Source: Actinomycetota bacterium (GTDB lineage: Bacteria > Actinomycetota > Actinomycetes > Nanopelagicales > Nanopelagicaceae). From it: DNA of 64,000 nucleotides. The translations under genes were made by a program, and so were the position numbers. This document shows positions 24,026 through 40,444 of this stretch, in pieces (position 1 is the first letter of the stretch; every line of letters begins with the position of its first letter). The notes beneath the pieces are model-generated. The model was not told where the DNA came from. It did no database searches and saw nothing but the letters and a program-made list of their open reading frames with translations. The stretch covers positions 1 through 64,000 of the forward strand of contig WLQG01000001.1 in NCBI GenBank assembly GCA_009698445.1. Reading direction: 5' to 3'.

Positions 24026-24027
24026 AA

Positions 24028-24929: not shown

Positions 24930-25769
24930 TTATTTAACTGCTCCTGCAGTAATTCCTTGAACTATGTGTTTTTGTATTGCCATTGATCCAATGAGGAGTG
25001 GAATTAATGTAACCACACCTACAGTTGCAGCAACATTCCAATCAATTGGCCGTTGTGCACTAATTAGACCAGCATCTGCAATTGGGACGGTTTTTAAAGC
25101 CTCAGAATCAATGACATACATTCCTATCAGGAACTCATTCCAAATAAATATAGCCGCAAAGATGCCTGCGACAACTATCCCAGGTCGAACCAATGGCAGA
25201 AGAACTTGGAGCAAAGTACGCCATTTATTTGCACCATCTATTTCGGCTGCCTCGTCAATTTCAGTTGGAATTTCATCAAAGAATCCAATGAGGATCCAAA
25301 TAACCAGGGGAAGTGAGAACGCCACGTAAGGGATAATTAAGCCAATTCGAGTATTAGCCACATGCAAAAAACGCATACTTAGCAAAATCGGAACCGCTAC
25401 AGCAACTGGAGGCATAAATCTTAAACTTAAAATTGTTGTTGAAATGCGCTCTGAGCCTTTTACCTTGAGGCGTGATAGAGAATATGCCGCTGGAGTTCCA
25501 ATAACTAATGAAAGCACCACAACAATTGAAGTAATAATTAAAGTGTTAATTGTGCTTGACACGTAACTTCTGTCAAATAAAACTTCTTTATAGTTTTCAA
25601 CAACTACGGACCACTCAATTTTGAGAGAGGGAGGAACTTCCCCAATATCTATTCTCCTTTTTGTCGAAAGTAAGAATAAATAACCAATTGGAAATATACC
25701 TACAATGGCAATAACGACAAGAGTTACATACGAAACAGATCTACTGGCCACCCTAGACAAAGTAGTCAT
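24930..25769 (-). CDS. Carbohydrate ABC transporter permease, MalG type
   Basis: A 279-residue permease with about six hydrophobic segments. The EAA docking loop is EIDEAAEIDGANKWRTLLQVLLPLVRPG, and the C-terminus IVQGITAGAVK is characteristic of the group. The gene starts immediately at the end of the MalF-type gene. It is part of the CUT1 importer with 26736 and 25770. No ATPase is present in the operon. Confidence 0.92.
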   Translation of the reverse strand: MTTLSRVASRSVSYVTLVVIAIVGIFPIGYLFLLSTKRRIDIGEVPPSLKIEWSVVVENYKEVLFDRSYVSSTINTLIITSIVVVLSLVIGTPAAYSLSRLKVKGSERISTTILSLRFMPPVAVAVPILLSMRFLHVANTRIGLIIPYVAFSLPLVIWILIGFFDEIPTEIDEAAEIDGANKWRTLLQVLLPLVRPGIVVAGIFAAIFIWNEFLIGMYVIDSEALKTVPIADAGLISAQRPIDWNVAATVGVVTLIPLLIGSMAIQKHIVQGITAGAVK

Positions 25770-26654
25770 TTAATGATTTCTCCTGACTGGAATCCATTTT
25801 AAAAGAACTGAAAATCCAATAGTTGCCATTATTACCATTATGTAGGAAAGCGCCGAAGCGAACCCATACCGGTAGTACACAAATCCGTTTTCAAATGAAT
25901 AAAAGCTCAGAGTTGTTGTCGATCGTCCTGGTCCCCCGAAAGTTAATCCGTAAACCAAATCGAAAGTTCTAAATGAATCGATTCCTCTAAATATTGCGGC
26001 AAACACAACTGCTGATGACACAAGGGGTAGGGTTATGTATCGAATAATTTTTAAAGGTGATGCTCCATCAACACGAGCAGATTCAAATACATCCATCGGC
26101 AGTGCCTGATACCTAGCAAATACAACGACAAATATGAATGGTGTCCACTGCCAGATATCCACAAAAATCAGCGTCCAAAGGGTCCACTTGGGATCAGCTA
26201 GCCAAATCGGTGGGTTATCTATTCCAAAAAGGCCAATAAACCAATTAATCAACCCCCATTGTGGATTAAGAAGGGCCCTCCACATAAGACCAACTACTAC
26301 AGGGTTAAGGATCATGGGAGTAATCAAAATTGCCCTAACAAATTTGGAACCTTTAAGTTTTTGGCCAAAAAAGATTGCCAATGACACGCCGGCTACGACT
26401 TCAACTATTAAAGCAACACCAACCATGACTCCTGTTACAAGGATTGAACTCCAAAAAACTTTATCCGAAAGGATTTCTTTGTAATTGCCTAAACCAAGAA
26501 AATTCCATTTTCCGGCGACTCGATCAAATTCAAAAAAGGAGATTCCTAAACTGTAAAGCAATGGAAATACAGAAAAAAGCCCCAGGTAAACAATTGCAGG
26601 GCCAATTAGTGTTTTAGTTTCATGTCTTAACAGAAAACTTTTTGAATTTGAAAT
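25770..26654 (-). CDS. Carbohydrate ABC transporter permease, MalF type; non-canonical start likely
   Basis: The MalF-type partner permease, with EAA loop ESARVDGASPLKIIRYITLPLVSS. The ORF track starts at a TTG (26559-26561) in the middle of the first membrane helix. The frame is open further upstream and reads RHETKTLIGPAIVYLGLF, which completes that helix. No ATG, GTG or TTG occurs between the TGA at 26667 and that TTG. An ATT at 26652, 9 nt after GAGGG, gives 294 residues, the normal family length, so I use it. An indel or a consensus error is the alternative. The protein assignment is firm, the start is not. Confidence 0.8.
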   Translation of the reverse strand: MSNSKSFLLRHETKTLIGPAIVYLGLFSVFPLLYSLGISFFEFDRVAGKWNFLGLGNYKEILSDKVFWSSILVTGVMVGVALIVEVVAGVSLAIFFGQKLKGSKFVRAILITPMILNPVVVGLMWRALLNPQWGLINWFIGLFGIDNPPIWLADPKWTLWTLIFVDIWQWTPFIFVVVFARYQALPMDVFESARVDGASPLKIIRYITLPLVSSAVVFAAIFRGIDSFRTFDLVYGLTFGGPGRSTTTLSFYSFENGFVYYRYGFASALSYIMVIMATIGFSVLLKWIPVRRNH

Positions 26655-26686
26655 TTTATTTATCCCTCAGTCTTCAGTTACAAGAA

Positions 26687-26723
26687 GTTAACGGACTCTC
26701 CAAATAATGGAGAGTCCGTTAAC
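26687..26723. terminator. Perfect 15-bp hairpin between the binding protein and permease
   Basis: GTTAACGGACTCTCC and its exact complement flank AAATAAT. It begins 13 nt after the binding-protein stop. A T-run is lacking on the minus strand, so partial termination or 3'-end protection is more likely than a full stop. Confidence 0.7.
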
Positions 26724-26735
26724 TACCTTAGTTAT

Positions 26736-28160
26736 TTATGCTAGGTGTCCAGCGCGCTTCAGGATTTTTTCCCATGAAGCTTGAGCATTGGCACAGGCTT
26801 GCTTAGCGGTTTGACTGCCAATGATCGCTAAGTTGAACTCGCGTGCTGCTTCGCCTACTAGTTCGAAGCATTCAGGAATTAACGCGACATCAAGCATCTT
26901 TGCATTTTCCATGGCCTGTCCGGCCACTTTCAAATATGGATACTTCTTGTTTAGAGCTGCGTCAACATAAGTTCCGCGACGATTTGGATCAGTCTGATAC
27001 TTATCGAATTGGTACTTATCGAATTCAGCGCTAGTGATGTACTGCATTACCATCCATGCTGCATCCTTGCGCTTCTGTGGAAGATTCTTTGGAATTCCAA
27101 GACCCCAACCACCGCGAATTGGGCGACCTGAAGTATTTGCATCTCCTGGAATCTGAACCGCACCAATTTTTGAAGCAACCTTTGATGTTGCTGGGTTAAA
27201 TGCTGAACCAGCAATTGTGGACCAGCAAAGCATAAGTGCAACGTCACCACGAGAGAATGCATCAACTGACTCAGTAAAGCCAAATGAACCAACACCCTTA
27301 GGTGAAACTTCAGCACAATCAATCATGTGCTGTACGGCGCGAACAGCTGTAGCACCATTCAAGTTTGGCTTGTAATTCTTTGCACCTGGAGTACCAGACA
27401 TGAGCTTTCCACCCATTGAAGCAAAGCGTGCATACCAGTCAACCAAAATAAGTGAAACATCGTTTGCGGCAATCATGGTTGTGCCTGAAACTCCACCAGT
27501 ATTTAACTTACGTGCAGCGTCAATATAGTCATCCCAGTTCTTAGGAACAGGAATTCCTGCAGCAGCTAGCAAGTCCTTACGGTAGAACATGATTACAGAA
27601 CCAGAGTGCATTCCTGGAATTAAGTAAACATCCTTTCCACCAAATTTATTCTTGGCAACATCATAACGGCTTGTGTAATCAAGTTGGCCCGCAGGAAAAT
27701 CTGCTGGATAATTGTAGGTCGATGCTGTCAGTTCTTTATTTGCAATATAGTCATTTAACTTTGTGAATAATCCTCCGCCAACAACTCCTGAAACTGTAAA
27801 ACCTAAGTTGTCGATGATGTCATACTCTGATGTTGGTGCATGCAAAACAGATTGAATTTTTTCTAACTGTGCTCCAAGAGCTAGCGCAGTTACTTCAACT
27901 TTGATGCCATGCGTCTTTTGAATATAAGAAATCTTGTCTTTAATGCCTTCCTGATCTCTTTCGCCATCAACAAGAAGAATTTTTACTGTAGTACCTGCAA
28001 ATTTCTTTGGGTTGAATGAAGCAGCTGTAGCTGATTCAGCCATCCCGACAGAACTTGCACCAGCAACTGCAGCTGCAGTTGCTCCGACCTTTAGGAAATC
28101 TCTGCGATTAACGCCACTGCTGCTGGAGTCAACGCCGCTTACTCCGTCTTTATCCTTCAT
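26736..28160 (-). CDS. Extracellular sugar-binding protein, Tat-exported
   Basis: A 474-residue family 1 solute-binding protein. The N-terminus has a Tat motif (VNRRDFLKVGA) and an Ala-rich hydrophobic stretch that ends MAESATAASF, with no lipobox Cys. The mature part has the MalE-like hinge pattern, for example VPKNWDDYIDAARKLN and DVALMLCWSTIAGSAF. It is the first gene of an operon with two permeases, two lactonase-like proteins and an SDR. Expression is predicted to be under the LacI operator at 28268. Confidence 0.9.
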   Translation of the reverse strand: MKDKDGVSGVDSSSSGVNRRDFLKVGATAAAVAGASSVGMAESATAASFNPKKFAGTTVKILLVDGERDQEGIKDKISYIQKTHGIKVEVTALALGAQLEKIQSVLHAPTSEYDIIDNLGFTVSGVVGGGLFTKLNDYIANKELTASTYNYPADFPAGQLDYTSRYDVAKNKFGGKDVYLIPGMHSGSVIMFYRKDLLAAAGIPVPKNWDDYIDAARKLNTGGVSGTTMIAANDVSLILVDWYARFASMGGKLMSGTPGAKNYKPNLNGATAVRAVQHMIDCAEVSPKGVGSFGFTESVDAFSRGDVALMLCWSTIAGSAFNPATSKVASKIGAVQIPGDANTSGRPIRGGWGLGIPKNLPQKRKDAAWMVMQYITSAEFDKYQFDKYQTDPNRRGTYVDAALNKKYPYLKVAGQAMENAKMLDVALIPECFELVGEAAREFNLAIIGSQTAKQACANAQASWEKILKRAGHLA

Positions 28161-28246: not shown

Positions 28247-28275
28247 AAATTAGACCTGCGAAAGGGCTAAGTCAA
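28247..28275 (-). promoter_or_regulatory. Promoter of the transporter-lactonase operon
   Basis: TTGACT, 17 nt, TAATTT on the minus strand. The -35 box lies inside the operator at 28268-28287. The predicted leader before the binding-protein ATG is about 80 nt. Confidence 0.7.
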
Positions 28276-28287
28276 GCGTTTGATTAA
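28268..28287. promoter_or_regulatory. LacI-type operator, third site (TAAGTCAAGCGTTTGATTAA)
   Basis: Matches 16 of 20 positions of the identical sites at 33082 and 36033, with the same central CG and near-palindromic arms. It overlaps the -35 box of the transporter operon, a position that would let the repressor block RNA polymerase. Confidence 0.65.
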
Positions 28288-28314
28288 AGGATTTTGCCTA
28301 TTTTATGCAGGGAT

Positions 28315-29454
28315 CTATTTTAGGCAGGCGCTCGGTATCGCAATCAGGGCACCAAGATCGTCTGAAACCTGCTGTTTCGTTATCCATTCGTAATCTACTA
28401 ACTTGCCTAGGCCGATTGTGGTCGAAAGAGGCTTCATCATCCCATTTTCAATAATGGGTTGTTCTAAACCATCATCCATTGGGTGCACACCTGTTCCAGG
28501 AATTCCCCACTCAATTGGTACATCCTTAAAACCAAAAATAGGAAGTAAGCGCGAATGTAAATGAGGAAACATGTGAGGTGAAACTTTAACCTGTGCTACC
28601 CGTGCACGCTCTAGTGACTTTTTAAGACCAGTGACTCCGCCATTAGTTGTCGCATCGACTCTAATTATGTCTACAGCTTTTGCACTCAGGAGTGCCTCGG
28701 GGTGATAGGAGCCCCCTTGCTCGTCACCCATTGCAACTGGAGTTTTTGAACCTTGTCTAACTCTAGCGACCATTCCTGCATCACCCGGTGGAACTACATC
28801 TTCAATCCAACCCAACTTTAAATCTCTAATTCTTTTTTCAAAATCAAGCACGGCTTCACTAGATCGTAAAACCATATTTATATCAAAGCCCACCCAATCA
28901 TTTGGCGCAGTTTCACGCGCAGCCCTTAGGCGCGCTTCTGAAAGTTCAAGATCTGGAGAAATAGGAATCTTGAATCTATTCCATCCTCGTTTCTGTAAGC
29001 CCTTAATTTGTTCAACAAGTTCGTCGGGCTGCATAGTAGGTGGGTAACCAACTATGGCTGTTGCTGGCAAGTCACAGAGTTCGCCCCCAAGTAATTCTTG
29101 AAATGACCTATTAGTTACCCTCGCAAATGCATCCCAACAAGCGATATCAACTAACGAAAGTGCACGCATTCCTATTCCTGCAGCATGCACGGCATGATTT
29201 GTCCAAAGTGCACCAAAATGCAATTCACTGGGGTTAGCCAGCTCTTTACCCACATAACAAGGAGCAATTGAGCGATGCACGATGGCACTTATTGGCCCAT
29301 CTCGAGTCAAGCCATAAGCAAACCCTGCAGTTCCATCCTCTAAATCCACACGAACAAGCGCAAATTCTCGATGGTCCATAATCCAATTTCCATAAATAAT
29401 TGGGACCGGCAAGATGTGATTGATCGTTGCGACACTTACTTTTGTGATTTTCAT
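28315..29454 (-). CDS. Enolase-superfamily protein (mandelate racemase/sugar-acid dehydratase-like)
   Basis: A 379-residue member of the mandelate racemase/muconate-lactonizing group. Metal ligands can be assigned to Asp in VGFDINMV, Glu in GWIEDVVPP and the Asp-Glu of AMGDEQGG. A His-Asp dyad is suggested by DIIRVDATTNGG and SPHMFPHLH. The usual KxK base motif after strand 2 reads RFKIP, so the second Lys is Pro. Dehydration of an acid sugar is the likely reaction. It ends the operon VOC, MIase-like, E1 beta, E1 alpha, SDR. A paralogue is at 34875. Confidence 0.85.
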   Translation of the reverse strand: MKITKVSVATINHILPVPIIYGNWIMDHREFALVRVDLEDGTAGFAYGLTRDGPISAIVHRSIAPCYVGKELANPSELHFGALWTNHAVHAAGIGMRALSLVDIACWDAFARVTNRSFQELLGGELCDLPATAIVGYPPTMQPDELVEQIKGLQKRGWNRFKIPISPDLELSEARLRAARETAPNDWVGFDINMVLRSSEAVLDFEKRIRDLKLGWIEDVVPPGDAGMVARVRQGSKTPVAMGDEQGGSYHPEALLSAKAVDIIRVDATTNGGVTGLKKSLERARVAQVKVSPHMFPHLHSRLLPIFGFKDVPIEWGIPGTGVHPMDDGLEQPIIENGMMKPLSTTIGLGKLVDYEWITKQQVSDDLGALIAIPSACLK

Positions 29455-29457
29455 ATG

Positions 29458-30255
29458 TTAAGCAATCAGATATCCATCGTCACACATGATGGTGTGACCA
29501 TTAACCAATACCGATGCATCACTACCTAAAAATATTGCCGCTCCGACCAACTCTCTTGGCAAGCCCAACCGGTCTCTAAGCATTCTGCCTTTAATGAAAT
29601 CAGCTGTAATGGATGTAGTTGCGGCAGCTTTTTTTGTGAGTGGAGAGTCCATTAAAGTTGGACCGATCCCGTTAACTCTGACTCCACGTGTTCCCCATTC
29701 TAAAGCAAAGGACTTTGTTAATTGAACTACTCCGCCCTTAGATGCTAAGTAAGCACTTGCAAGTGGGTATGCATTAAAGCCACCGATTGAAGCAATATTT
29801 ATAATGCTTCCCTTTTGCTGCTTCAACATAATGTTTCCAAAAACTTGTCCCGCAAGGTATGTCCCTTTTAAATTTAGATTCAAAATAAAATCTAATTTAT
29901 CTTCTGGAAAATCTTCAGCAGGACTGCGAAAAGCCGTTCCTGCACTATTGACCAAAATATCTACCCTTGAAAAACTCTCTAAGACTTTTAATGAAGCTGC
30001 TGTCAGATCTTCTTTTGAAGTCACGTCACATTTGAAACTCTTAACAGTTCCACCTTGAGAATTTATAACTGACTCAGTTTCCTGCATTCCTTCAGTATTA
30101 ACATCTAAGAGGGCTACTTTTACGCCAACTTGTGCATAGCCCATGGCAATTGCAGCTCCTAAACCGCTACCGCCACCAGTAATAACTGCGACTCGATCCT
30201 GTAAATCAAAAAGGGTCGAGGCATACCCAGCTGGAACCACGTCAGAATCGCTCAT
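29458..30255 (-). CDS. Short-chain dehydrogenase/reductase
   Basis: A 265-residue SDR with the loop TGGGSGLGAAIA, NSAGTAF, Ser in IINIASIGG and the catalytic YLASK. The C-terminal loop ends GHTIMCDDGYLIA. It lies 3 nt after E1 alpha and 3 nt before the enolase-superfamily gene, so it is co-translated with both. It may oxidise the hydroxyl of the 2-keto-3-deoxy acid produced by the dehydratase, as in known diketo pathways for L-fuconate or L-rhamnonate; inference. Confidence 0.9.
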   Translation of the reverse strand: MSDSDVVPAGYASTLFDLQDRVAVITGGGSGLGAAIAMGYAQVGVKVALLDVNTEGMQETESVINSQGGTVKSFKCDVTSKEDLTAASLKVLESFSRVDILVNSAGTAFRSPAEDFPEDKLDFILNLNLKGTYLAGQVFGNIMLKQQKGSIINIASIGGFNAYPLASAYLASKGGVVQLTKSFALEWGTRGVRVNGIGPTLMDSPLTKKAAATTSITADFIKGRMLRDRLGLPRELVGAAIFLGSDASVLVNGHTIMCDDGYLIA

Positions 30256-30258
30256 TTT

Positions 30259-31242
30259 TTAACCTTTCGCGCTTACATGCTGCATTAGTGCACTCAGCTC
30301 TGGTCCATCGCTAGCCAAAACTGTCTTTATGGCTGCGGCAACCCGATTATCAATATCTGATTTCATTGTTTCAAGCTCATTTTCGCTGAGCGCACCTTTT
30401 GAAATCAATTTGCTAGCAGCTATATCTAGGGGATCTCTTTTTTTCCACTCATCTAGCTCACCTGGTGTGCGATACGTGGCTGGGTCAGATCGTGAATGTC
30501 CGCTGTATCGATACGTCTTAGCTTCAATCAGCGAAGGTCCATTTCCAGCTCGAGCAAAATCGACTGCCGACTGAATTGCGTTAATAACGGCATCAACATC
30601 TTGGCCATCTACGATTTCCTTACGCATTGCATAAGAATCAGCTCTGTCAGCTAAATCTGATATCGGTGTACTCAAATTAATGCGTGTGTATTCACCATAA
30701 AGATTATTTTCAATTACAAATATGACAGGCAGTTTAAATATGCTAGCCATATTCAAAGTTTCATGGAATGCCCCAATATTTGTTGAGCCATCTCCAAAGA
30801 TTGTCAGTGCGACTGAGTCATTCTTTTTTAACTTTGCTGCAAGTGCTACACCGGCTGCAACTGGTAACCCAGCACCAACTATTGCAAAGGTTGGCATCAA
30901 CCCAACACTCGCGTCCATCAAGTGCATAGATCCGCCAATGCCACCTGAACAACCAATGACGCGCCCACAAATTTCACCAAGTACGCCTTCGGGAGTGACT
31001 CCAAGGGCAAGGGCTGCTGCATGCCCGCGATAAGTGCACGTCACCACATCCGTAGGTCTTAAAACGCTGGCAATTCCAACTGACACTGCTTCCTGTCCAT
31101 TTGCTAAGTGCGTACTTCCGCGCACGTGCCCATCGTTATAAAGAGTCTGAATGCTTTCTTCTACTGCGCGAATTTCTAACATTCGCTCTAAGCGGCCAAC
31201 CTCTGTGTTTAGCTGACTTCTACGCGTTAATGATGTGACCAT
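30259..31242 (-). CDS. TPP-dependent 2-oxoacid/acetoin dehydrogenase E1, alpha subunit
   Basis: About 327 residues, E1 alpha of the pyruvate/acetoin/branched-chain dehydrogenase family. The TPP motif is GDGSTNIGAFHETLNMASIF to IENN, and the loop YSGHSRSDPATYRT is the conserved flexible segment. I start at the ATG at 31242, overlapping the E1 beta stop by 1 nt with GGAG 6 nt upstream. E1 decarboxylates a 2-oxoacid (or cleaves acetoin) and transfers the acyl unit to a lipoyl arm. No E2 or E3 lies next to it. Confidence 0.9.
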   Translation of the reverse strand: MVTSLTRRSQLNTEVGRLERMLEIRAVEESIQTLYNDGHVRGSTHLANGQEAVSVGIASVLRPTDVVTCTYRGHAAALALGVTPEGVLGEICGRVIGCSGGIGGSMHLMDASVGLMPTFAIVGAGLPVAAGVALAAKLKKNDSVALTIFGDGSTNIGAFHETLNMASIFKLPVIFVIENNLYGEYTRINLSTPISDLADRADSYAMRKEIVDGQDVDAVINAIQSAVDFARAGNGPSLIEAKTYRYSGHSRSDPATYRTPGELDEWKKRDPLDIAASKLISKGALSENELETMKSDIDNRVAAAIKTVLASDGPELSALMQHVSAKG

Positions 31243-32249
31243 TATTTTGCTCCTTCCCACCAAGCAGCGGGGCTTTTACCAGTTTTTAAAAGCTCATTAA
31301 TTTGTGAAACAACGTAGTCAGAGCTCGGTAGATATCTCTTTTCAAGTTCTTGCGCATAAGGGATCGGTGCATCTGGTGAAGTGATTCTGTGTGGAGGAGT
31401 TTTCAATTGTCCCCACAATTTTGATACAACTTCAGAACAAATTTCTGCACCCCAGCCACCTGAATATGAGCTTTCTTCAATGACAACTAGTCTGCCGGTT
31501 TTTGCTACTGATTTCATCACTGCTGATTTGTCCCAAGGGACCAATGTTTGTAAATCAATAATTTCTGCAGACCATTCAGATTGAGATTCCAGCGCAACCT
31601 TGGCTGTTAAAACTGTGCTACCGATTGCAACGATTGTTACATCTGATCCTTCAGTAACTGTACGTGCTTGGCCGATTGGAATAATTCCAGCCTCACCAGT
31701 AATGACATCACCTCGCTCGCCGTACAGACCTTTGTGCTCAAGAATTACAACTGGGTCGTTACTACGAATCGCACTTCTGAGAAGGCCATACATAGATTGT
31801 GGAGTTGAAGGAATTACGAGACTAATTCCAGCATTTCCTCTAAACCATTGATCCAAGATTTGAGAATGCTGACATCCAAATCCCATTCCAGCACCTGCAG
31901 CTGCTCTAATTGTTAAGGGCACTTGATATGCACCTCTAGATAAATATCTAAAAAATGCGCCTTGAGTTGTTAGTTGATCTAAAGCAACTCCAATGAACTC
32001 AATAAACATCATTTCAACGACAGGACGCATGCCCATCGCTGCGGCTCCAACCCCAGCACCAAGAAATGCCATTTCCGAAATCGGTGTATCGATTACCCGG
32101 GTATCCCCAAATTTTTCAATCAATCCTTCAGTGGCTTTAAACGGCCCACCAGATCCAATATCTTCTCCCATAAGGAATACGGTTGGGTCGCTTTCCATTT
32201 CATCGGAAAGGGCTTGAATAACTGCTTGGCGTGTCCGCATGACGGTCAT
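31242..32249 (-). CDS. TPP-dependent 2-oxoacid/acetoin dehydrogenase E1, beta subunit
   Basis: A 335-residue transketolase-like beta subunit. Landmarks are TRQAVIQALSDEMESDPTVFLMGED, DTPISEMAFLGAGVGAAAMGMRPVVE and the C-terminal VVIEESSYSGGWGAE. It overlaps the small isomerase-like gene by 4 nt and E1 alpha by 1 nt. The pair forms an alpha2beta2 E1. The order beta before alpha is the reverse of most pyruvate and acetoin operons. The substrate is probably a 2-oxo acid arising in this island. Confidence 0.92.
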   Translation of the reverse strand: MTVMRTRQAVIQALSDEMESDPTVFLMGEDIGSGGPFKATEGLIEKFGDTRVIDTPISEMAFLGAGVGAAAMGMRPVVEMMFIEFIGVALDQLTTQGAFFRYLSRGAYQVPLTIRAAAGAGMGFGCQHSQILDQWFRGNAGISLVIPSTPQSMYGLLRSAIRSNDPVVILEHKGLYGERGDVITGEAGIIPIGQARTVTEGSDVTIVAIGSTVLTAKVALESQSEWSAEIIDLQTLVPWDKSAVMKSVAKTGRLVVIEESSYSGGWGAEICSEVVSKLWGQLKTPPHRITSPDAPIPYAQELEKRYLPSSDYVVSQINELLKTGKSPAAWWEGAK

Positions 32250-32542
32250 TTGATTTCACCATATCTCTTCGGGTCGTTTGGATGTTCTGCTAAAGGCCAA
32301 ATCTCAGTCTCGAGCCATGGGAAGAATGGCAAACTAGAAATCGCTGCATGCAGTTGCGTTGCATCAGCAGCAACCCAAATACCAACATTAGATTTCTGGC
32401 CAGGTCGTCGCCAAATTTTCTTAATTACGCCTTCATTAGCCAACACGGTTGCGCGGGCACTTTCAGCTTTTGTAAGAGAGGCTAGTAAATCTTTGTCCCC
32501 ATCGGCAGGGTACGTATTCTTAATTAAAACCATAAATTCCAT
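32246..32542 (-). CDS. Muconolactone isomerase-like small protein
   Basis: A 98-residue ferredoxin-like-fold protein of the muconolactone delta-isomerase family (CatC). The start MEFMVLIKN, the central IWRRPGQKSNVGIWV and the end SSLPFFPWLETEIWPLAEHPNDP follow the family closely. I start at 32542, since the track start adds 9 residues that overlap the upstream gene. No other aromatic-degradation genes are seen, so a role on a sugar-derived unsaturated lactone is more likely than beta-ketoadipate chemistry. Confidence 0.8.
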   Translation of the reverse strand: MEFMVLIKNTYPADGDKDLLASLTKAESARATVLANEGVIKKIWRRPGQKSNVGIWVAADATQLHAAISSLPFFPWLETEIWPLAEHPNDPKRYGEIK

Positions 32543-32546
32543 AATT

Positions 32547-33020
32547 TCACTCGCCCTTATATTCGCCAAATGAGGTTGAACTTTGAATCAACTCCACCCG
32601 AACACCATCAGGATCAATCATGTAAATTGCCCGTCCGCCCTTGTTTGGTCCAATCGTTGGAGTTACAGGAGTAGAGACACTTTTCACGCCTTTCTTTGTT
32701 AACTCCTTGAACCACTCATCGACATCATCGACAAAAAAAGCAATGTGAGCGATACCTGGGTTGGCATTTCCATGATCTATATCCTTCAAATCCACATTCC
32801 CATATTCAAGTAGTTCTAAAAAAACATCTACGCCTGGCATTTTTAAAATCGTAGCGTTGAGGTCAACATCCGGATAGCCGGTCAATACACCTATGTACTC
32901 TGCTTGTGGATTCCAGGAAAACACTTCTTCAAATCCGAGAAGCTCTTTATAAAATTTAGTTGATTCTCGCAACGACTTTACAGAGATACCTGTGTGATGC
33001 GCTTTGGTTATCTGGGCCAA
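32547..33020 (-). CDS. VOC-family (glyoxalase/bleomycin-resistance fold) protein
   Basis: A VOC metalloenzyme-like protein of about 157 residues with two beta-alpha-beta-beta-beta units. AHHTGISVKSLRESTKFYKELLGF starts the first and GIAHIAFFVDDVDEWFKEL the second; YMIDPDGVRVELIQ ends it. Likely metal ligands are the early His and late Glu. The ORF-track start at 33089 lies inside the -35 box of the promoter, so I place the start at TTG 33020, 8 nt after AAGGGG. It is the first gene of a LacI-controlled operon. Epimerase, isomerase and dioxygenase functions are all possible. Confidence 0.83.
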   Translation of the reverse strand: MAQITKAHHTGISVKSLRESTKFYKELLGFEEVFSWNPQAEYIGVLTGYPDVDLNATILKMPGVDVFLELLEYGNVDLKDIDHGNANPGIAHIAFFVDDVDEWFKELTKKGVKSVSTPVTPTIGPNKGGRAIYMIDPDGVRVELIQSSTSFGEYKGE

Positions 33021-33060
33021 CTTTAATTCCCCTTCTTCAGCAGCTTTTCGAGCGTTCCCA

Positions 33061-33089
33061 AGGCTATGTGAGGTCGCTAGGTTAGTCAA
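33061..33089 (-). promoter_or_regulatory. Promoter of the VOC-E1 operon
   Basis: TTGACT, 17 nt, TAGCCT on the minus strand, with the -35 inside the operator. The predicted RNA start lies about 34 nt before the TTG at 33020. Confidence 0.7.
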
Positions 33090-33101
33090 CCGATTGACTA
33101 A
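33082..33101. promoter_or_regulatory. LacI-type operator TTAGTCAACCGATTGACTAA (site 1)
   Basis: A 20-bp near-perfect palindrome with a central CG pair, identical in all 20 positions to the site at 36033. It lies between the end of the LacI gene and the first gene of the E1 operon. Confidence 0.8.
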
Positions 33102-33107
33102 AATTAT

Positions 33108-34154
33108 TTAGCGCTTCGGTTTTCCCGTGGAATCTCGGGCCACTAACACCGGCGGAGTATCCACAATCAGATGGCCAGGTGATCCTCCACCAATGATTCT
33201 GAGCAGTAAATCTACAGACTGGCTACCCATCTCAACTGTAGGCAAATGAACTGTGGTTAAGGAGGGCGATAAATAATTTGCAATATCGCTATCGTGCAAT
33301 GCTGCAACCCTCACATTATTAGGAATATCTACGCCTAGTTCATGGGCTGCGCGAATAAATCCGATTCCCATCATAATTGTCGAGGCAAATACTGCGTCTG
33401 GTTTGACCTTCTTTGACAGTAGTTCTAGGCCGGCTTCTCTTCCAGCTTCCATTCCCCAAGAATTTTTTTCGATAACCGTATGTTTGAGTTTGTTTCTTGC
33501 TGCTGCACTTTCAAAACCCTTACGACGTCGTTGTGCCGTATCGATAATTTGTGGGCCGAATATACCCGCAATGGACTTAGTACCAAATTGAGCTAGATGA
33601 TCAACTGCAAGTGATGCCCCCAGTTCATCGTTCACAGTTACACTTGCCGAGACACCTTTAACACGACGATTTACCATGACTACAGATTTATAGTGATCAA
33701 GGATTTCTTTCTTTAGAAATGTATCGGAAAGAGTGCCTGAAGCAATTAAAAGACCATCTACTTGCCCTCGTTCAAGTAAATCTGTGAATGTTTTTTCAGA
33801 ATCACCTTCAGCATGATCTCCAATTAAAATTCCATATCCGAGATCTTTACACCTCTGCTCTACGCCCGTAATTATTGCTGAATACATGGGATTGGCCATA
33901 TCAGGAAGCAGAAGGCCAATCATCTGCGTGCGGGCGGTTTTCAACATTCTCGCCGCTGAATTAGCTCTATAACCTAACTCTTGAACGGCATCTAAAACTC
34001 GCTGACGCGTTGCTGGCGATGCACTCGCTTTGGGGTCATTATTAACAATTCGTGAAACAAGGCTGGGATCTACTTTAGCAATGCGAGCAACATCTCTAAT
34101 TGTCGCGCGTACTTGCTTTACATCGCTCGCTTTTTCGCTCTTTGGCGTCGCCAC
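33108..34154 (-). CDS. LacI-family transcriptional repressor
   Basis: A regulator of about 348 residues. The HTH (ATIRDVARIAKVDPSLVSRIVNND) lies near residues 15-38 and the hinge helix in RVLDAVQELGYRANSAARML. The sugar-binding core (QMIGLLLPDMANPMYSAII, ending in LTTVHLPTVEMG) follows. I prefer the GTG at 34154 behind AGAGGG over the GTG at 34175; both are possible. The 20-bp palindromes at 33082, 36033 and 28268 have the central CG expected for LacI operators and are its likely targets. Confidence 0.9.
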   Translation of the reverse strand: MATPKSEKASDVKQVRATIRDVARIAKVDPSLVSRIVNNDPKASASPATRQRVLDAVQELGYRANSAARMLKTARTQMIGLLLPDMANPMYSAIITGVEQRCKDLGYGILIGDHAEGDSEKTFTDLLERGQVDGLLIASGTLSDTFLKKEILDHYKSVVMVNRRVKGVSASVTVNDELGASLAVDHLAQFGTKSIAGIFGPQIIDTAQRRRKGFESAAARNKLKHTVIEKNSWGMEAGREAGLELLSKKVKPDAVFASTIMMGIGFIRAAHELGVDIPNNVRVAALHDSDIANYLSPSLTTVHLPTVEMGSQSVDLLLRIIGGGSPGHLIVDTPPVLVARDSTGKPKR

Positions 34155-34248
34155 AATTCTTGCCCTCTGTTTCACCTATTTATTCACAAGGATTGTAATA
34201 TACGGCACACCATGGGGAAAGGCCCTATCAATCTTGATTTGAGGAATT

Positions 34249-34878
34249 TTGGGCACAGTACGCTCTATTGCTAAGAAGTCAATCAGCAATAAAACAATTT
34301 CAGACCTCGCCGCTGCCATTCATGCTGGGCGCTTAGTAATTTTACCGGCAACATCGGGCTACATAATCGCTTGTGATGCACAAAATACATCGGCAATTAC
34401 TGATTTAAACATACTTAGAGAAAACAATGAGGAATACATTCTTTCAATGATTTTTTCATCAATAACCCAAATGGATAGCGAAGTGACTATTCCCAATTTT
34501 GATGAGGAAACCAAAAATTATATTGAAACTGGACAATTAACATTAGTTCTTCCTCGCGATGAGTCCATGCGGGTAAATGCATCTGGTTTTAGAGAGTTAG
34601 TTGCCGTCAACATTCCGGTGAATCAAAACATTAAGAAATTACTAGAAAAAACTGGTCCGTGCGTGGTAGCTGCCGCGGCATTACCTGGGCAAGGATTACC
34701 ACTAGAGGTCAAAGATATAAGTTCAAAAATCAAAGAAGGGGTTGAATACATCTTGGATGCCGACAAGATTTCAGGGTTGGTCTCCACAGTTATAAATTTT
34801 GAGAAAAGAAAACCAATAATTTCAAGAAATGGCGCAGTGCCAGAAGAGACTATAAAAAAGCTTTTCCCGGAAATTTAA
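34249..34878 (+). CDS. Divergent YrdC/Sua5-like protein with degraded active site
   Basis: A 209-residue protein that follows the YrdC/TsaC fold: AIHAGRLVILPATSGYIIACDA near the start, QLTLVLPRDES in the middle and STVINFEKRKPIISRNGAVPEE at the end. The KxR...KPL motif is replaced by ILRENNEEY, and the SANxSG segment reads AAAALPGQG. TC-AMP synthase activity (tRNA t6A) is therefore doubtful. TTG start after GAGG. It is divergent from the LacI gene and overlaps the 34875 gene by 4 nt. Its role is unknown; a housekeeping TsaC is expected elsewhere. Confidence 0.7.
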   Translation: MGTVRSIAKKSISNKTISDLAAAIHAGRLVILPATSGYIIACDAQNTSAITDLNILRENNEEYILSMIFSSITQMDSEVTIPNFDEETKNYIETGQLTLVLPRDESMRVNASGFRELVAVNIPVNQNIKKLLEKTGPCVVAAAALPGQGLPLEVKDISSKIKEGVEYILDADKISGLVSTVINFEKRKPIISRNGAVPEETIKKLFPEI

Positions 34879-36005
34879 TTAAAAATTCCTTCAGGATCTT
34901 CAAAATTTTGTGTATGGATCCAATCCTTATTAACTAGGTTTCCAAAACCACTCTCTTCAGCAAGTGGGCTCATATAGCCGCCATCAATAATTTCAGGTTG
35001 GCGCAAACTGTCCGCATAGGGGTCGACGCCAGTCCAAGGTACGCCCCATTCAATTGGCACAGATGCATGGCCCCAAGCGCTGAATACTTGACTGTGAACA
35101 TGGGCAAACATGTGTGGCGCAAAATCTACTTTTGATTCAAGACACTGTTTTACTATTTTCTTTCCACCAGTTATCCCGCCCATGCAGGTCAAATCAATAC
35201 GTACGACATCAACAGCAGATTTTGAAATTAAAGATTCTGGGTAATAAATTCCACCTTGTTCATCTCCCATAGCTATAGGGATGCGAGTTCGTTGCCTCAG
35301 CTCGCGTACTACTTGTGCATTACCGGGTGGAAATACATCTTCAAACCAACCCAAATTTACATCCCCTAATAAGTTTAATAAATCCATCGCAGAATCAACA
35401 TCATCAAAAATCCATGCTGCATCGCAACCAATCCAAGCATCGGGAGCCGCTTTGCGCGCTGCCAGTAAGCGTTCAGCAGTTGCCATATTATTTACACCCA
35501 CTGGAGCTTTGAATCTTCGCCAGCCCTTTTTATAAAGATCGCTTACTTGTTCAAATACTTCATCGCCCCCCATTTTCGCTGGCGGATATCCAATGATTGC
35601 CGTGGCAGGCATCGGTGCAAGATGGCCACCTAGAAGAGATGAAATTGATTTGTTTGACTGCTTTGCATAAGCATCCCAAGTGGCTAGATCAAGGATTGAT
35701 AACGCCCTAAGACCTAACCCAGCCGAGTGTGAGGCCAAACTTCTCCGCAAAGCTGTCACGTATGTTTTCTCAACATCTTGTGCATCTGTTCCTATGTAAA
35801 TATTTTTTAAAGTCTTTCGAATCTGCTCAGCGACTGCTCCATCGCGCGTGAGAGTAAATGCCCATCCTTCAACACCTGAATTTAAGGTAACTTTGACAAC
35901 CACGTACTCTCTAGTTTTCATAATCCAATCGCCAAAAACAACCGGTGCAGGTAGTTCCCCTGCAACTGTGGCCACATTGATACTAGATATGGTTGACGCG
36001 CTCAT
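34875..36005 (-). CDS. Enolase-superfamily protein (sugar-acid dehydratase-like), paralogue
   Basis: A 376-residue paralogue of the protein at 28315. It shares an identical layout: PVVFGDWIMKTREYVVVKV at the start, RFKAP in place of KxK, GCDAAWIF and GWFEDVFPPGNA metal strands, AMGDEQGG, RIDLTCMGG and APHMFAHVHS. The second Lys is again Pro. It is monocistronic and divergent from the MaoC-CaiB operon. Its promoter -10 (TACTTT) ends 6 nt before the ATG and no Shine-Dalgarno is seen, so the mRNA is probably leaderless. Confidence 0.86.
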   Translation of the reverse strand: MSASTISSINVATVAGELPAPVVFGDWIMKTREYVVVKVTLNSGVEGWAFTLTRDGAVAEQIRKTLKNIYIGTDAQDVEKTYVTALRRSLASHSAGLGLRALSILDLATWDAYAKQSNKSISSLLGGHLAPMPATAIIGYPPAKMGGDEVFEQVSDLYKKGWRRFKAPVGVNNMATAERLLAARKAAPDAWIGCDAAWIFDDVDSAMDLLNLLGDVNLGWFEDVFPPGNAQVVRELRQRTRIPIAMGDEQGGIYYPESLISKSAVDVVRIDLTCMGGITGGKKIVKQCLESKVDFAPHMFAHVHSQVFSAWGHASVPIEWGVPWTGVDPYADSLRQPEIIDGGYMSPLAEESGFGNLVNKDWIHTQNFEDPEGIFN

Positions 36006-36011
36006 GAATGA

Positions 36012-36040
36012 AAAGTAAACCCAGCCCCCCTTTTAGTCAA
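36012..36040 (-). promoter_or_regulatory. Promoter of the 34875 dehydratase gene, probably leaderless
   Basis: TTGACT, 17 nt, TACTTT on the minus strand. Six nt separate the -10 from the ATG at 36005, which places the RNA start at the A of the start codon. Confidence 0.65.
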
Positions 36041-36068
36041 CCGATTGACTAAAAGGGGGGCTGGGTTT
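36017..36068. repeat. 52-bp perfect inverted repeat enclosing the LacI operator
   Basis: Two exact 24-nt arms (AAACCCAGCCCCCCTTTTAG...) surround CCGA. The centre is the LacI operator; the outer arms are the spacers of two divergent promoters, so both promoters are mirror copies. As RNA the repeat would form a very stable hairpin, but it lies upstream of both predicted RNA starts, except its outermost bases. Confidence 0.9.
36033..36052. promoter_or_regulatory. LacI-type operator TTAGTCAACCGATTGACTAA (site 2)
   Basis: Identical to the site at 33082. It overlaps the -35 boxes of two divergent promoters, so one bound repressor could silence both. Confidence 0.8.
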
Positions 36069-36073
36069 AAGGT
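36045..36073 (+). promoter_or_regulatory. Promoter of the MaoC-CaiB-CitE-lipoyl operon
   Basis: TTGACT, 17 nt, TAAGGT on the plus strand. The spacer is the mirror of the one used by the divergent promoter. Leader of about 33 nt before the ATG at 36113. Confidence 0.68.
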
Positions 36074-36112: not shown

Positions 36113-36598
36113 ATGAAACGTGAATTTGATGCCCGAGCTGATCGGTATGGGCGTTTTTATGATGAATTTGAAGTTGGTGACATTTACCGACACTGGCCAG
36201 GGAAAACAATAACCGAGTCTGAAGATCATCTTTATTGCATGTTAACTATGGCCGGTAGCCCGCTGCATATTGACTCTCACTATGCCAAAGTTGAAATGCC
36301 TCAAGGAAAAAATATTGTTGTGGGCACTTATATCTATGCATTGTTAACCGGAATGTCTGTGGCTGATATTTCAGGAAAAGCTATTGTAAGTTTAGGTGTG
36401 AAGGAACTAAATCATATATTGCCAGTTTTTCATGGAGATACTATTTATGCCTCTACTGAGATATTAGACAAAAGGTTTTCCAAATCAAAGACAGACCAGG
36501 GAATTGTAAGTGTTAAAACATCAGGGTTTAATCAAAACAAGGAATTAGTTTGTACATTTGAGCGCGCATTTTTAGTTCCTTTACATGGGCCAAAGTAA
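36113..36598 (+). CDS. MaoC-like hydratase/dehydratase (first copy)
   Basis: A 161-residue hot-dog-fold protein that probably hydrates an enoyl-CoA or the reverse. The hydratase-2 segment reads GSPLHIDSHYA, retaining the Asp and His pair in D-x-H form, and is preceded by YRHWPGKTITESEDHLYC. It is the first gene of a seven-gene operon with two CoA-transferases, a lyase, a second MaoC, a lipoyl domain and an SDR. Its stop overlaps the next start by 1 nt (TAATG). The dicarboxyl-CoA substrate is inferred from the neighbours. Confidence 0.87.
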   Translation: MKREFDARADRYGRFYDEFEVGDIYRHWPGKTITESEDHLYCMLTMAGSPLHIDSHYAKVEMPQGKNIVVGTYIYALLTGMSVADISGKAIVSLGVKELNHILPVFHGDTIYASTEILDKRFSKSKTDQGIVSVKTSGFNQNKELVCTFERAFLVPLHGPK

Positions 36599-37743
36599 TG
36601 ACTGCTAAAGAACATTCAGGCCCACTCGTCGGGCTAAAAGTCATTGACTTAGCAACAGTTGTTGCTGGTCCAGGGGTAGCAAAATATTTTGCGGATTATG
36701 GTGCAGATGTAATTAAGATAGAAAGACCCTCTGGAGACTCCACTAGAGCAATGGGATGGACCGAGCCAGGTGAGACTGATTCTCTCTGGTGGAAATTAGT
36801 AAATCGTGGCAAACGTTCACTAGTTTTAGATTTAAAGAATGACGCAGATCTTTCAATATTAAAGGAGCTTATTGATTCTGCCGATTTATTGATAGAAAAC
36901 ATGCGCCCCGGAAAAATTGAACAACTTGGGTTGGATCCTGAAGAATTGATTTCTAGAAATCCAAAACTAGTTGTTTTACGCGTTTCTGGTTTTGGACAAA
37001 CTGGTCCATACGCGCAAAAACCTGGCTTTGCCACAATTGCAGAAGCCCTTTCAGGTCTCTCTTCGCTTTTAGGAGAACCTGATGGGGGTCCACTATTGCC
37101 GCCAATCGCACTTACTGATGAAGTCACAGCGCTAGTTGGATCATTCTCAGCCATGATTGCGATTTTTCACGCAAAGCTAACTGGGCAAGGCCAGATAGTG
37201 GATATAGATCTTGTTGACTCAGTCTTGCAAATCATGGGACCACTGCCAGCAGCCTGGGATTCACTTGGTTATCTTCAGCCACGACTAGGTTCAAGCATTC
37301 CTTATTCAATTCCCCGTGGAACTTATAAGTGTTCTGATGGAGTTTGGGTAGCACTTTCAGCTTCAGCGGAATCTGTGGCTAAGCGGCTCATAGAAACCGT
37401 AGGAGGGGCAGGTGATCCTCGATTCACATCCTTTCAATCTCGATTTGAGAACCGAGAAGCTCTTGAAGAGCTGACAAGTAACTGGATTGGCTCGAGAACT
37501 TCTAAAGAAGTCATTGAAACTATTGAAGCCGCAGACGCAGCTATTGCACCAGTTTATAATATGCAACAGGTTATTGAAGACCCTCATTTTATCGCCAGGG
37601 AAAGCTTCACAAAAGTGGACGGGATTCTCATGCAAAACTTGGTAGCTCGGCTTTCGAAAACTCCTGGCAAGATTATTTCAGCTGGGCCAAAATTAGGTGA
37701 GCATAATGAAGAAATTAAAAGAGAGCTTCATGACAAGAATTAA
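36598..37743 (+). CDS. CaiB/BaiF (family III) CoA-transferase (first copy)
   Basis: A 381-residue CoA-transferase. The N-terminal LKVIDLATVVAGPGVAKYFADYGADVIKIERP and the segment LIENMRPGKIEQLGLDPEEL are diagnostic. A candidate catalytic Asp lies in PPIALTDEVTALVGSFSAM, and TGQGQIVDIDLVDSV is the conserved follow-up. These enzymes move CoA between carboxylic acids, often dicarboxylates such as succinate, itaconate or mesaconate. In the operon it sits between a MaoC hydratase and a CitE lyase, the gene set of itaconate/mesaconate-type degradation. Confidence 0.92.
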   Translation: MTAKEHSGPLVGLKVIDLATVVAGPGVAKYFADYGADVIKIERPSGDSTRAMGWTEPGETDSLWWKLVNRGKRSLVLDLKNDADLSILKELIDSADLLIENMRPGKIEQLGLDPEELISRNPKLVVLRVSGFGQTGPYAQKPGFATIAEALSGLSSLLGEPDGGPLLPPIALTDEVTALVGSFSAMIAIFHAKLTGQGQIVDIDLVDSVLQIMGPLPAAWDSLGYLQPRLGSSIPYSIPRGTYKCSDGVWVALSASAESVAKRLIETVGGAGDPRFTSFQSRFENREALEELTSNWIGSRTSKEVIETIEAADAAIAPVYNMQQVIEDPHFIARESFTKVDGILMQNLVARLSKTPGKIISAGPKLGEHNEEIKRELHDKN

Positions 37744-38689
37744 TCTCTTGTCAAAAAGAAGTGTCCTAGCAGTTCCCGGCTCTAGCGAAAAAATGATTCA
37801 AAAAGCACGGCTATTGAATGCTGATGAAATATTCCTAGATTTAGAAGATTCAGTGTCGCTACCCGAAAAGGAATCTGCTAGGTCATTAGTCATTTCTGAA
37901 TTGAATAAGGGCGGTTTTAATTCAGCCTCAGTGGCTGTTCGGGTTAACGAACAAAACCAATCAATAGGAATCCAAGACATCGAAGAACTTATTACTAAAG
38001 CGCCTACTAAATTTTCTTCTATCATCATTCCTAAAGTTGAGACGTCACAACAAGTTACTGAGATTTGTCAGAGATTAACTGATTTAGAACTCTCACAAGG
38101 GTTGAATGATCAAACAAAAATTCAACTTCAAATTGAATCAGCACGTGGACTACTAAATGTTAAAGAAATAGCCAGTGCATGCGGGCGCACAATCTCCTTG
38201 ATTTTTGGCCCTGGTGACTTCGCGGCAAGTATGGGGATGCAGGTTTTGAATATCGGTGAGAACCCAGTCAATTATCCAGGTGAAGATGCATATCATCATG
38301 TCCTATTTTCAATACTTACTGCTGCACGCGCAAATGGTTTATTAGCAATCGATGGTCCCTTTAGCGATCTTGGAAATGAGCCTGGACTAAAACATAGGTC
38401 TCAATTATCTGCTTCCCTTGGCTACGATGGAAAGTGGGTTATTCACCCATCGCAAATAGAAGTAGTGAATTCTATTTTCACACCTAGTGAGGAAGTTTTC
38501 GAGAAATCTTCTAAAATTATTGCTCACTTTAACCGTTCGAATGCAACTGAAAAATCTGCGGGTGCCTTTTTATTCGAAGGGAAAATGATTGATGAGGCAA
38601 CTAGGAAAATGGCTGAAATGATTTATTCAAAAGGTATCGCTGCAGGTTTAAAGCCTTCTATGAATGGGGATAATAATGGCAAAGCATAA
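37730..38689 (+). CDS. HpcH/HpaI-CitE family acyl-CoA lyase
   Basis: A TIM-barrel lyase of about 319 residues that splits malyl-, citramalyl- or methylmalyl-CoA type esters. RSVLAVPGSSEKMIQKA opens it, LDLEDSV and LQIESARGL carry the acidic residues, and FGPGDFAASMGM resembles malyl-CoA lyases. I start at ATG 37730; the track start at 37697 lies further into the preceding gene. It overlaps CaiB by 14 nt and MaoC2 by 14 nt. It would deliver acetyl-CoA (or propionyl-CoA) and glyoxylate or pyruvate. Confidence 0.9.
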   Translation: MTRINLLSKRSVLAVPGSSEKMIQKARLLNADEIFLDLEDSVSLPEKESARSLVISELNKGGFNSASVAVRVNEQNQSIGIQDIEELITKAPTKFSSIIIPKVETSQQVTEICQRLTDLELSQGLNDQTKIQLQIESARGLLNVKEIASACGRTISLIFGPGDFAASMGMQVLNIGENPVNYPGEDAYHHVLFSILTAARANGLLAIDGPFSDLGNEPGLKHRSQLSASLGYDGKWVIHPSQIEVVNSIFTPSEEVFEKSSKIIAHFNRSNATEKSAGAFLFEGKMIDEATRKMAEMIYSKGIAAGLKPSMNGDNNGKA

Positions 38690-39209
38690 AGCTGAACTGG
38701 GTAGATTTTATGAGGATTTTGTTGTTGGTGATTCGTATGAACATCCTTTTGGTCGTACCATCAGTGAGACTGATTGCACATGGTTTACACAATTAACATG
38801 TAATACAAACCAAAACCATTTTAATGCGCATCTGGCTCTTTCTAATCCGGTCTCAAATGGAAAAATAATTGTCAACTCTGGTCTTACTGTTGCCATTATC
38901 CTGGGCATTTCAGTTATTGATATGAGTCAAAATGCAGTGGCTAATTTGGGCTGGACTGACATTAAACTTACACACCCGGTCTATGTTGGGGACACTTTGT
39001 ATGCCGAAAGTATCTGCACAGAAGTTCGCGAATCTTCTTCAAAACCAAATATGGGAATTATTTCTATGTTCACTAGAGGGTTAAACCAGGATGGCATCGA
39101 AATAGTGACTTGGTTTAGAAGTGTCATGATTCCAAAGCGAAGTTCTGGAATTGGCCAGAATTATTTTCCTACGCCAAAATCTGGAGCAATTGAAGGGCGA
39201 ATGTCTTAA
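38676..39209 (+). CDS. MaoC-like hydratase/dehydratase (second copy)
   Basis: A MaoC protein of about 177 residues. The catalytic segment reads NQNHFNAHLA, with Asn where the first copy has Asp. The HFN pattern resembles, from memory, mesaconyl-CoA and methylmalyl-CoA hydratases. I start at ATG 38676 behind GGGGATAAT; the track ATG at 38664 is in frame 12 nt upstream and cannot be excluded. It overlaps CitE and is followed by the second CaiB protein. Confidence 0.85.
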   Translation: MAKHKAELGRFYEDFVVGDSYEHPFGRTISETDCTWFTQLTCNTNQNHFNAHLALSNPVSNGKIIVNSGLTVAIILGISVIDMSQNAVANLGWTDIKLTHPVYVGDTLYAESICTEVRESSSKPNMGIISMFTRGLNQDGIEIVTWFRSVMIPKRSSGIGQNYFPTPKSGAIEGRMS

Positions 39210-39211
39210 GC

Positions 39212-40444
39212 ATGACTCTTGCATCACCAATACTTTCTGGTTTGAGAATTATTGAAGGATCGGCCTTTGTAGCTGCCCCTCTCGGTGGGCTTACTTTGGC
39301 TCAACTTGGAGCAGAAGTAATTCGCTTTGACCCCCTAAGTGGAGGGCTGGATTTCAAACGTTGGCCAATTACCAAATCTCATGCATCACTTTTTTGGGCT
39401 GGATTAAACCGTGGGAAGAAATCTATTCAAGTGGACCTCAAGAGCCAGAGAGGTAGAAAGTTAATATCTGACCTAATAACTTCGCCTGGCGAAGGATCTG
39501 GAATATTTCTCACGAATCTTGCCTCTAAAGATCAATTGAGTTATGAAGAACTTCGTAAGAAAAGATCTGACGTTATTGTAATTTCTTTAACTGGTAATTT
39601 TGATGGTTCAAGCGAAGTTGATTACACGGTGCATCCAGCATTTGGATACCCAATGATTACAGGGCCAAAAAATTCGGATTCGCCAACAAATAGTGTTCTG
39701 CCAACCTGGGATTTGATCCTTGGAAACCTTGTCGCAATTGCAATTTTAGCGGCAGAGCGAAAACGACGTCAGACAGGTGAAGGTGAATTTGTTTCGATTG
39801 CACTCTCAGATGTCGCATTGTCAGTTGTTGGTGCTCTAGGTCGACTATCACAAGCATATATTGGTGAAGAGATGATTGCCCAAGATGGAAATTACCTTTA
39901 TGGGTCTTTTGGTAAGAATTTTCTTACAGCAGATAAACAACAAATTATGCTAGTTGGTTTAACTTCTAGACAGTGGAATTCACTTACGACCGCACTTAAT
40001 ATAGAAAGTTCATTAAAGGAACTTGAAAAGGATTTAGCTGCCGATTTCCAAGATGAAGGGCAGCGATATGCGCATAGAGAATCGATAGCGCTCATCATAG
40101 AAAGAGTTGTTGCATCAAAAGAATTACAAGAATTAATTCCTATTTTTGTAGCCAATAAAGTGAGCTGGTCTAAATATCAAAGCTTTGAGGATTTGCTCAA
40201 TAATGATGCAAGGGCTTCTGATCAAAATCCTATTTTCTCTCTCCAGAACCAGCCAGGGGTAGGAACAACGCCAAATATTGCATCGCCAATAAGATTCCAA
40301 TTTAGCCGCAATCTAGAGCCAGAGATTGCGCCTTACTTTGGACAGCACACCGAGGAAGTCCTAAAGGAGATTCTAAATCTGAGCCCTGAAGAGCTTGATG
40401 ACTTGGTTAAGGAAAAAATCATAAAGAGAGATAACAGGGGGTAA
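39212..40444 (+). CDS. CaiB/BaiF (family III) CoA-transferase (second, divergent copy)
   Basis: A 410-residue CoA-transferase-like protein. LRIIEGSAFVAAPLGGLTLAQLGAEVIRFDP and NRGKKSIQVDLKSQRGR are clear family segments. A candidate catalytic Asp lies in LPTWDLILGNLVAIAILAA, followed by TGEGEFVSIALSD. It is more divergent than the first copy in its C-terminal half. It starts 2 nt after MaoC2. The two CaiB-MaoC pairs suggest two successive CoA-thioester steps, or two halves of an intermolecular CoA shuttle. Confidence 0.88.
   Translation: MTLASPILSGLRIIEGSAFVAAPLGGLTLAQLGAEVIRFDPLSGGLDFKRWPITKSHASLFWAGLNRGKKSIQVDLKSQRGRKLISDLITSPGEGSGIFLTNLASKDQLSYEELRKKRSDVIVISLTGNFDGSSEVDYTVHPAFGYPMITGPKNSDSPTNSVLPTWDLILGNLVAIAILAAERKRRQTGEGEFVSIALSDVALSVVGALGRLSQAYIGEEMIAQDGNYLYGSFGKNFLTADKQQIMLVGLTSRQWNSLTTALNIESSLKELEKDLAADFQDEGQRYAHRESIALIIERVVASKELQELIPIFVANKVSWSKYQSFEDLLNNDARASDQNPIFSLQNQPGVGTTPNIASPIRFQFSRNLEPEIAPYFGQHTEEVLKEILNLSPEELDDLVKEKIIKRDNRG

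Follow-up and report, generated by a model that had tools for sequence, protein, structure and literature searches.

Regulator, proposed operators and genes of the locus

The stretch of DNA considered here (the window) comprises 64,000 nucleotides of an actinobacterium of the family Nanopelagicaceae (assembly GCA_009698445.1, contig WLQG01000001.1, positions 1 to 64,000), and carries a gene for a LacI-family regulator together with three copies of a 20-bp palindrome that appear to be its operators. The sequence TTAGTCAACCGATTGACTAA occurs twice without mismatch, at 33082-33101 (operator 1, minus strand) and at 36033-36052 (operator 2, common to two divergent promoters), while a third form matching it at 16 of 20 positions, TAAGTCAAGCGTTTGATTAA, lies at 28268-28287 (operator 3, reading TTAATCAAACGCTTGACTTA on the minus strand). 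The original prediction had drawn a LacI regulon of about 20 genes from these sites, and its coordinates were reproduced exactly, as were the position of the LacI gene between the sites (33108-34175, minus strand) and the placement of one site each ahead of the VOC/E1 operon and the ABC-transporter/lactonase operon and of one in the gap between the divergent dehydratase and MaoC-CaiB units. With operon limits set by conservation, the regulon comprises 18 genes plus lacI. In the encoded protein, a proposed repressor whose true start may be about 11 codons downstream, both the LacI helix-turn-helix (PF00356) and a periplasmic-binding-protein-like effector domain (PF13377) scored above cut-off.

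The sites stood out sharply from their background. Dinucleotide shuffles of the window yielded a mean of 0.00 matches to the 20-mer with up to 3 mismatches allowed, and a matrix built from the three sites scored them at 31.9, 31.9 and 25.7 against 10.6 for the next-best place, so that the operators exceeded every other window position by at least 15 bits. When the whole genome (1.34 Mb, about 85% complete, 43% G+C) was searched with the pattern TWAGTCAANCGNTTGAYTAA at 0 mismatches, the three operators alone were recovered; the next-best candidate, with 2 mismatches (C56:12883), was rejected as a fourth operator because it lies within a coding open reading frame. All three are even palindromes with a central CG, which is the rule for LacI-family sites (PMC4052901). 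These features support the reading of the three sites as operators of a local LacI regulon, a known kind of system of which this would be a new and unusually well defined member.

Gene families were assigned from Pfam and NCBIfam scans. Operator 1 precedes a minus-strand operon that begins with a VOC/glyoxalase-fold protein (32547-33047), the start of which was corrected by means of relatives: an open reading frame extends from its first possible start at 33089 and only apparently overlaps the operator, while alignment with the closest relatives begins at residue 15 or 16, placing the start near 33047 and the operator in intergenic DNA. The 300-bp gap between this gene and E1 beta is filled by a muconolactone delta-isomerase-like gene that had gone unmentioned in the original prediction (PF02426; 32246-32569, start possibly at an internal ATG, residue 10), which encodes at most 107 amino acids and is 71-91% conserved in all seven relatives searched. 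There follow the beta (31242-32249) and alpha (30259-31263) subunits of a 2-oxo-acid dehydrogenase E1, an SDR dehydrogenase (29458-30255) and an enolase-superfamily (MR/MLE) sugar-acid dehydratase (28315-29454). E1 alpha scored 340.7 bits against the pyruvate dehydrogenase equivalog TIGR03182, below the curated cut-off of 393.85; no E2 gene was found in the cluster, and one E2-family gene lies elsewhere in the genome.

Operator 2 separates a second MR/MLE dehydratase (34875-36005, minus strand) from a plus-strand operon encoding a MaoC-type hydratase (36113-36598), a family III CaiB coenzyme A (CoA) transferase (36598-37743), an HpcH/CitE-type CoA lyase whose nearest solved relatives are malyl-CoA lyases (37697-38689), a second MaoC-type hydratase related to beta-methylmalyl-CoA dehydratase (38664-39209) and a CoA-transferase resembling 2-methylfumaryl-CoA isomerase (Mct; 39212-40444). 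Downstream of operator 3, all on the minus strand, lie a CUT1-type sugar ABC transporter solute-binding protein (26736-28160), two permeases (25770-26561 and 24930-25769), two SMP-30/gluconolactonase-like proteins (23180-24918) and an SDR dehydrogenase (22326-23135); the operon was taken to end with this gene, the point at which the nearest relative ceases to share genes. Between the binding-protein gene and the permeases we also observed a 17-bp perfect inverted repeat with a 5-nt loop (26686-26724), which may set differential expression within the operon.

Conservation and specificity of the sites

The exact core AGTCAANCGNTTGACT, expected by chance about 0.006 times per genome, was present in five of 135 genomes of the genus (G000, G067, G081, G093 and G149), and a separate protein search of the same genomes recovered LacI orthologues (64-95% identity) only in these five, the next-best protein reaching 35% (hypergeometric P about 3e-9 for the co-occurrence, genomes treated as independent). 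The 130 genomes without this LacI contained no exact core, and their one-mismatch cores were dismissed as background, being scattered single matches about as frequent as those of a reversed control pattern. In the complete 1.5-Mb genome G067 the core occurred exactly three times, in each case within the cluster and before one of the same three transcription units. The 20-mer was thus not common away from promoters, and it was kept before the same genes in every relative having the cluster and the relevant contig, on both of which counts the original prediction held.

A scan of a genome collection with the LacI protein returned six loci, five of 90-95% and one of 66% identity, all with operators where expected within the reach of their contigs. 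Two apparent losses were rejected: in L030 an assembly gap (NN) occupies the centre of the palindrome at the equivalent of 36033, and in G078, whose enzyme operon lacks a site, the 4,816-bp contig ends inside CaiB. Two other contigs, L031 and L033, are filed under metagenome-assembled genomes of Betaproteobacteria and Alphaproteobacteria, although they carry a cluster collinear with that of the actinobacteria, at about 78-99% identity; the filing is probably a binning error. The recognition segment DPSLVSRIVNNDP was invariant in LacI orthologues down to 66% identity and altered in two paralogues.

More distant orthologues (64-81% identity in G067, G081 and G149) were accompanied by sites of nearly unchanged sequence. 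The two strong sites were identical at 19-20 of 20 positions among G000, G067, G081 and G149, whereas their 25-bp flanks had diverged nearly to chance level, with 4-13 of 25 positions matching in most comparisons outside close kin; the exceptions are the closely related G081 and G149, and the -10 side of the VOC promoter, which G067 has in common with both. The transporter site was less strict (16-20 of 20) and consistently had ACGC at its centre, as in operator 3, in place of TCGG, a difference that could indicate weaker or different repression. A transcription unit with altered content retained its site: in G067 the CUT1 transporter has given way to one of the CUT2 type (binding protein, ATPase and permease) while the operator before the operon is kept, a persistence difficult to account for if the site did not regulate the operon. 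The swapped operon (L052, 6959-11544) also contains a D-lyxose-isomerase-like gene (PF07385). G149 was missed by a search with HpcH, and the operator alone led to three short contigs, each with the expected genes adjoining the site. Sites before orthologous genes and co-occurrence with the regulator, both hallmarks of regulon membership, were accordingly found together.

One relative, G081, appears from its site content to extend the regulon to P450 and transporter genes. Three further exact sites were found there, at about 5336 of L098 (C18) and at 6997 and 9022 of L099 (C26), before a P450-SDR operon and beside genes for an SDR, a DUF4432 protein, a sugar-binding protein, two permeases and a 694-aa protein for which no Pfam or PDB sequence match was found.

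Promoter geometry, proposed repression and alternative readings

Each half of the palindrome contains the hexamer TTGACT, and we searched 8-35 bp downstream of it for TANNNT in every site. In 16 of 16 promoters of G000, G067, G081 and G149 the motif was found at 17 bp (nine promoters) or 18 bp (seven), other offsets being rare. The four promoters predicted in the window all have 17-bp spacers, and the chance for four promoters at one given offset is about 3e-7. They belong to the transporter operon (28247-28275, minus strand; -35 TTGACT at 28275-28270 within the operator, -10 TAATTT at 28252-28247), the VOC operon (33061-33089, minus; TTGACT at 33089-33084, TAGCCT at 33066-33061), the MaoC operon (36045-36073, plus; TTGACT at 36045-36050, TAAGGT at 36068-36073) and the dehydratase at 34875-36005 (36012-36040, minus; TTGACT at 36040-36035, TACTTT at 36017-36012), whose mRNA, with its start placed from this promoter, would be leaderless or nearly so. 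A standard sigma-70 scan applies a stricter threshold to the -10 box and for that reason did not list these promoters. At the additional G081 sites, which were found regardless of geometry, TANNNT stood at 17 bp in three of four promoters. Where a site serves one direction only, the far half of the palindrome was conserved though it has no -35 role, which points to a dimeric protein rather than a mere promoter element.

We consider it highly probable that a single LacI protein represses four promoters through operators covering their -35 boxes and is relieved by an effector. When the effector, probably derived from a sugar, is lacking, a dimer of the protein encoded at 33108-34175 would cover the operator; TTGACT in each half-operator would act as the -35 box of a promoter with its TANNNT -10 box 17 bp further on, so that the bound repressor would directly block RNA polymerase. 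At 36033 one dimer would close both divergent promoters. Binding of the effector would release all four promoters together, and the 18 genes for uptake, opening of lactones, dehydration, oxidation by E1 and the CoA-dependent steps would consequently be induced as a unit.

Several points weigh against this interpretation. The region upstream of lacI has no operator, and the expected autoregulation, common if not obligatory, was hence not seen, while 72% of the LacI-family regulators that have been studied control their own genes (PMC4052901). The binding of LacI to the operators is something we infer from their co-occurrence, and the five genomes share ancestry, so that this co-occurrence does not amount to five independent events. 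Moreover, TANNNT is missing at 17-18 bp from one of the four promoters that belong to the additional sites in G081. The missing operator of lacI, like the indirect evidence of binding, would also suit a reading in which the palindromes serve another regulator and the LacI of the cluster controls something else; we regard this as improbable, given that the palindromes co-occur strictly with this LacI only, that their even symmetry and central CG are those of the LacI family, and that no other DNA-binding regulator was present among the proteins of the regulon region that were scanned. Some LacI-family proteins are also activators, but activation from these sites appears just as improbable, since every predicted promoter has its -35 hexamer within the bound site, the geometry expected for occlusion. 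An origin of the sites by chance or as a dispersed repeat was refuted by the genome and genus searches and can practically be dismissed: besides the null expectation in shuffled sequence and the lack of other copies in the genome, the flanks differ between the sites.

Operator 2 needs separate consideration, since it forms the core of a perfect 54-bp palindrome (36016-36069; 25-nt arms, 4-nt centre) that does not appear in the original prediction. The arms fill both 17-bp spacers, so that the divergent promoters have identical spacers. Among five close relatives, the sequences on which the co-variation of the arms rests, arm pairs were intact in 98.4% of cases, with four pairs changed on both sides, and in L031 the palindrome is broken at two pairs. 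The arms occur once in the genome, and the palindrome was therefore rejected as a dispersed repeat. A YrdC/Sua5-family gene (34249-34878, plus strand) lies between lacI and the dehydratase in the clade of the window, convergent on the dehydratase; it was not found at the equivalent place in G067 and G081.

The palindrome might serve mainly as a bidirectional terminator or insulator, for example against convergent read-through from YrdC, with the operator at its centre. The region folds into a very stable hairpin (-55.7 kcal/mol, z = -8.0), its minus strand was scored terminator-like, and arm pairing has been kept through paired changes; on the other hand, the T-tracts are weak, the paired changes could stem from template-switch repair instead of selection, and G067, G081 and G149 keep the operator without the arms, which also leaves the palindrome unsupported as an ancestral part of the operator. 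We judge a mainly terminating or insulating role unlikely, though less so than the alternatives above. The paired changes themselves may reflect selection, either for termination or insulation against YrdC read-through or for equal strength of the two promoters, or else template-switch correction.

A possible pathway for sugar acids

That the genes form one pathway, as the original prediction held, is supported by their apparent co-regulation and by gene content. The HpcH protein seems best placed with the CoA lyases rather than with the HpaI/GarL aldolases, against which it scored 25-28 bits; against the equivalogs for malyl-CoA lyase and the C-C lyase of the itaconate pathway (NF041626 and NF038242) it reached 101.5 and 162.3 bits, below the cut-offs of 500 and 375. 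The Mct-like protein, at 430.5 bits against TIGR04253 (2-methylfumaryl-CoA isomerase; cut-off 725), appears related to Mct, and the same function is not claimed for it. As the CoA enzymes score under the equivalog cut-offs, no reaction was assigned to them. Nor could the dehydratases be used to assign a substrate, their nearest solved structures being weak matches spread over many sugar acids.

Other genomes of the genus carry E1 paralogues of 51-56% identity, and in the two sister clusters examined (G005, L119, C34; G157, L121, C1) E1 alpha and beta (about 52%) lie near a paralogue of HpcH (37-39%). Both stretches also hold MR/MLE dehydratases, SDR and LacI genes and genes resembling sugar isomerases of the rhamnose or fucose type, with an SMP-30 gene in the G157 cluster and an amidohydrolase, a P450 and an alpha-L-rhamnosidase in that of G005. 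The recurrence of the E1-HpcH pair suggests that E1 makes a CoA thioester that HpcH cuts.

Non-phosphorylative routes I-III for 2-keto-3-deoxy acids proceed respectively by aldol cleavage, by dehydration, and by dehydrogenation plus hydrolysis (PMC6336799). The cluster resembles them in combining dehydrogenases, lactonases, MR/MLE dehydratases, an ABC transporter and a regulator, but no 2-keto-3-deoxy-acid aldolase or FAH hydrolase was found among the regulon proteins scanned, and the cluster has instead E1 alpha/beta and the CitE/malyl-CoA-lyase-type HpcH, which suggests a route different from the three described. In SAR202, paralogues of MR/MLE and SDR enzymes are assigned to fucose and rhamnose routes leading to pyruvate and lactate or lactaldehyde, with no mention of pyruvate dehydrogenase (PMC10444878). 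The joining of MaoC hydratases, an HpcH lyase and an Mct-like protein in one operon recalls the mesaconyl-CoA enzymes of the second cycle of the 3-hydroxypropionate bicycle; here, however, all score below the curated NCBIfam cut-offs, MaoC is single-domain, and the set belongs to a sugar regulon.

As a tentative proposal, the cluster might encode a fourth non-phosphorylative sugar-acid route, in which an MR/MLE dehydratase would form a 2-keto-3-deoxy acid and E1, drawing on shared E2/E3, would convert it by oxidative decarboxylation to a hydroxyacyl-CoA; the MaoC and Mct-like enzymes would rearrange this product, and an enzyme of the CitE/malyl-CoA-lyase type would cleave it to acetyl-CoA and an aldehyde or oxo acid. 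Within the literature library searched, no publication joined these enzyme types, and a pathway of dehydratases, E1, CoA lyase and mesaconyl-CoA-type enzymes may be new. As a regulon, the system is like the local LacI sugar-catabolism regulons of the RegPrecise type (PMC4052901) in its palindrome, in the position of the regulator beside transporter and catabolic genes, in its few operons and in having sites upstream of start codons; it is unlike them in that no autoregulation was seen and that each operator doubles as a -35 box at a fixed spacing of 17-18 bp.

Very probably, then, one LacI-type repressor switches about 18 genes of an unusual sugar breakdown together, with the same sites standing before the same genes in distant relatives. 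The host, probably of the acI group (Nanopelagicales), is apparently one of the abundant, genome-streamlined and mostly uncultured freshwater actinobacteria, in which gene function is read from sequence, and a regulon defined by its operators shows which genes work together without culture. In this case it links sugar transport and the lactone and dehydratase steps to E1 and to mesaconyl-CoA-type enzymes, otherwise unlinked, and the question of what these bacteria eat becomes testable, through a binding assay for the sugar acid that releases this LacI and through reconstitution of the enzymes.

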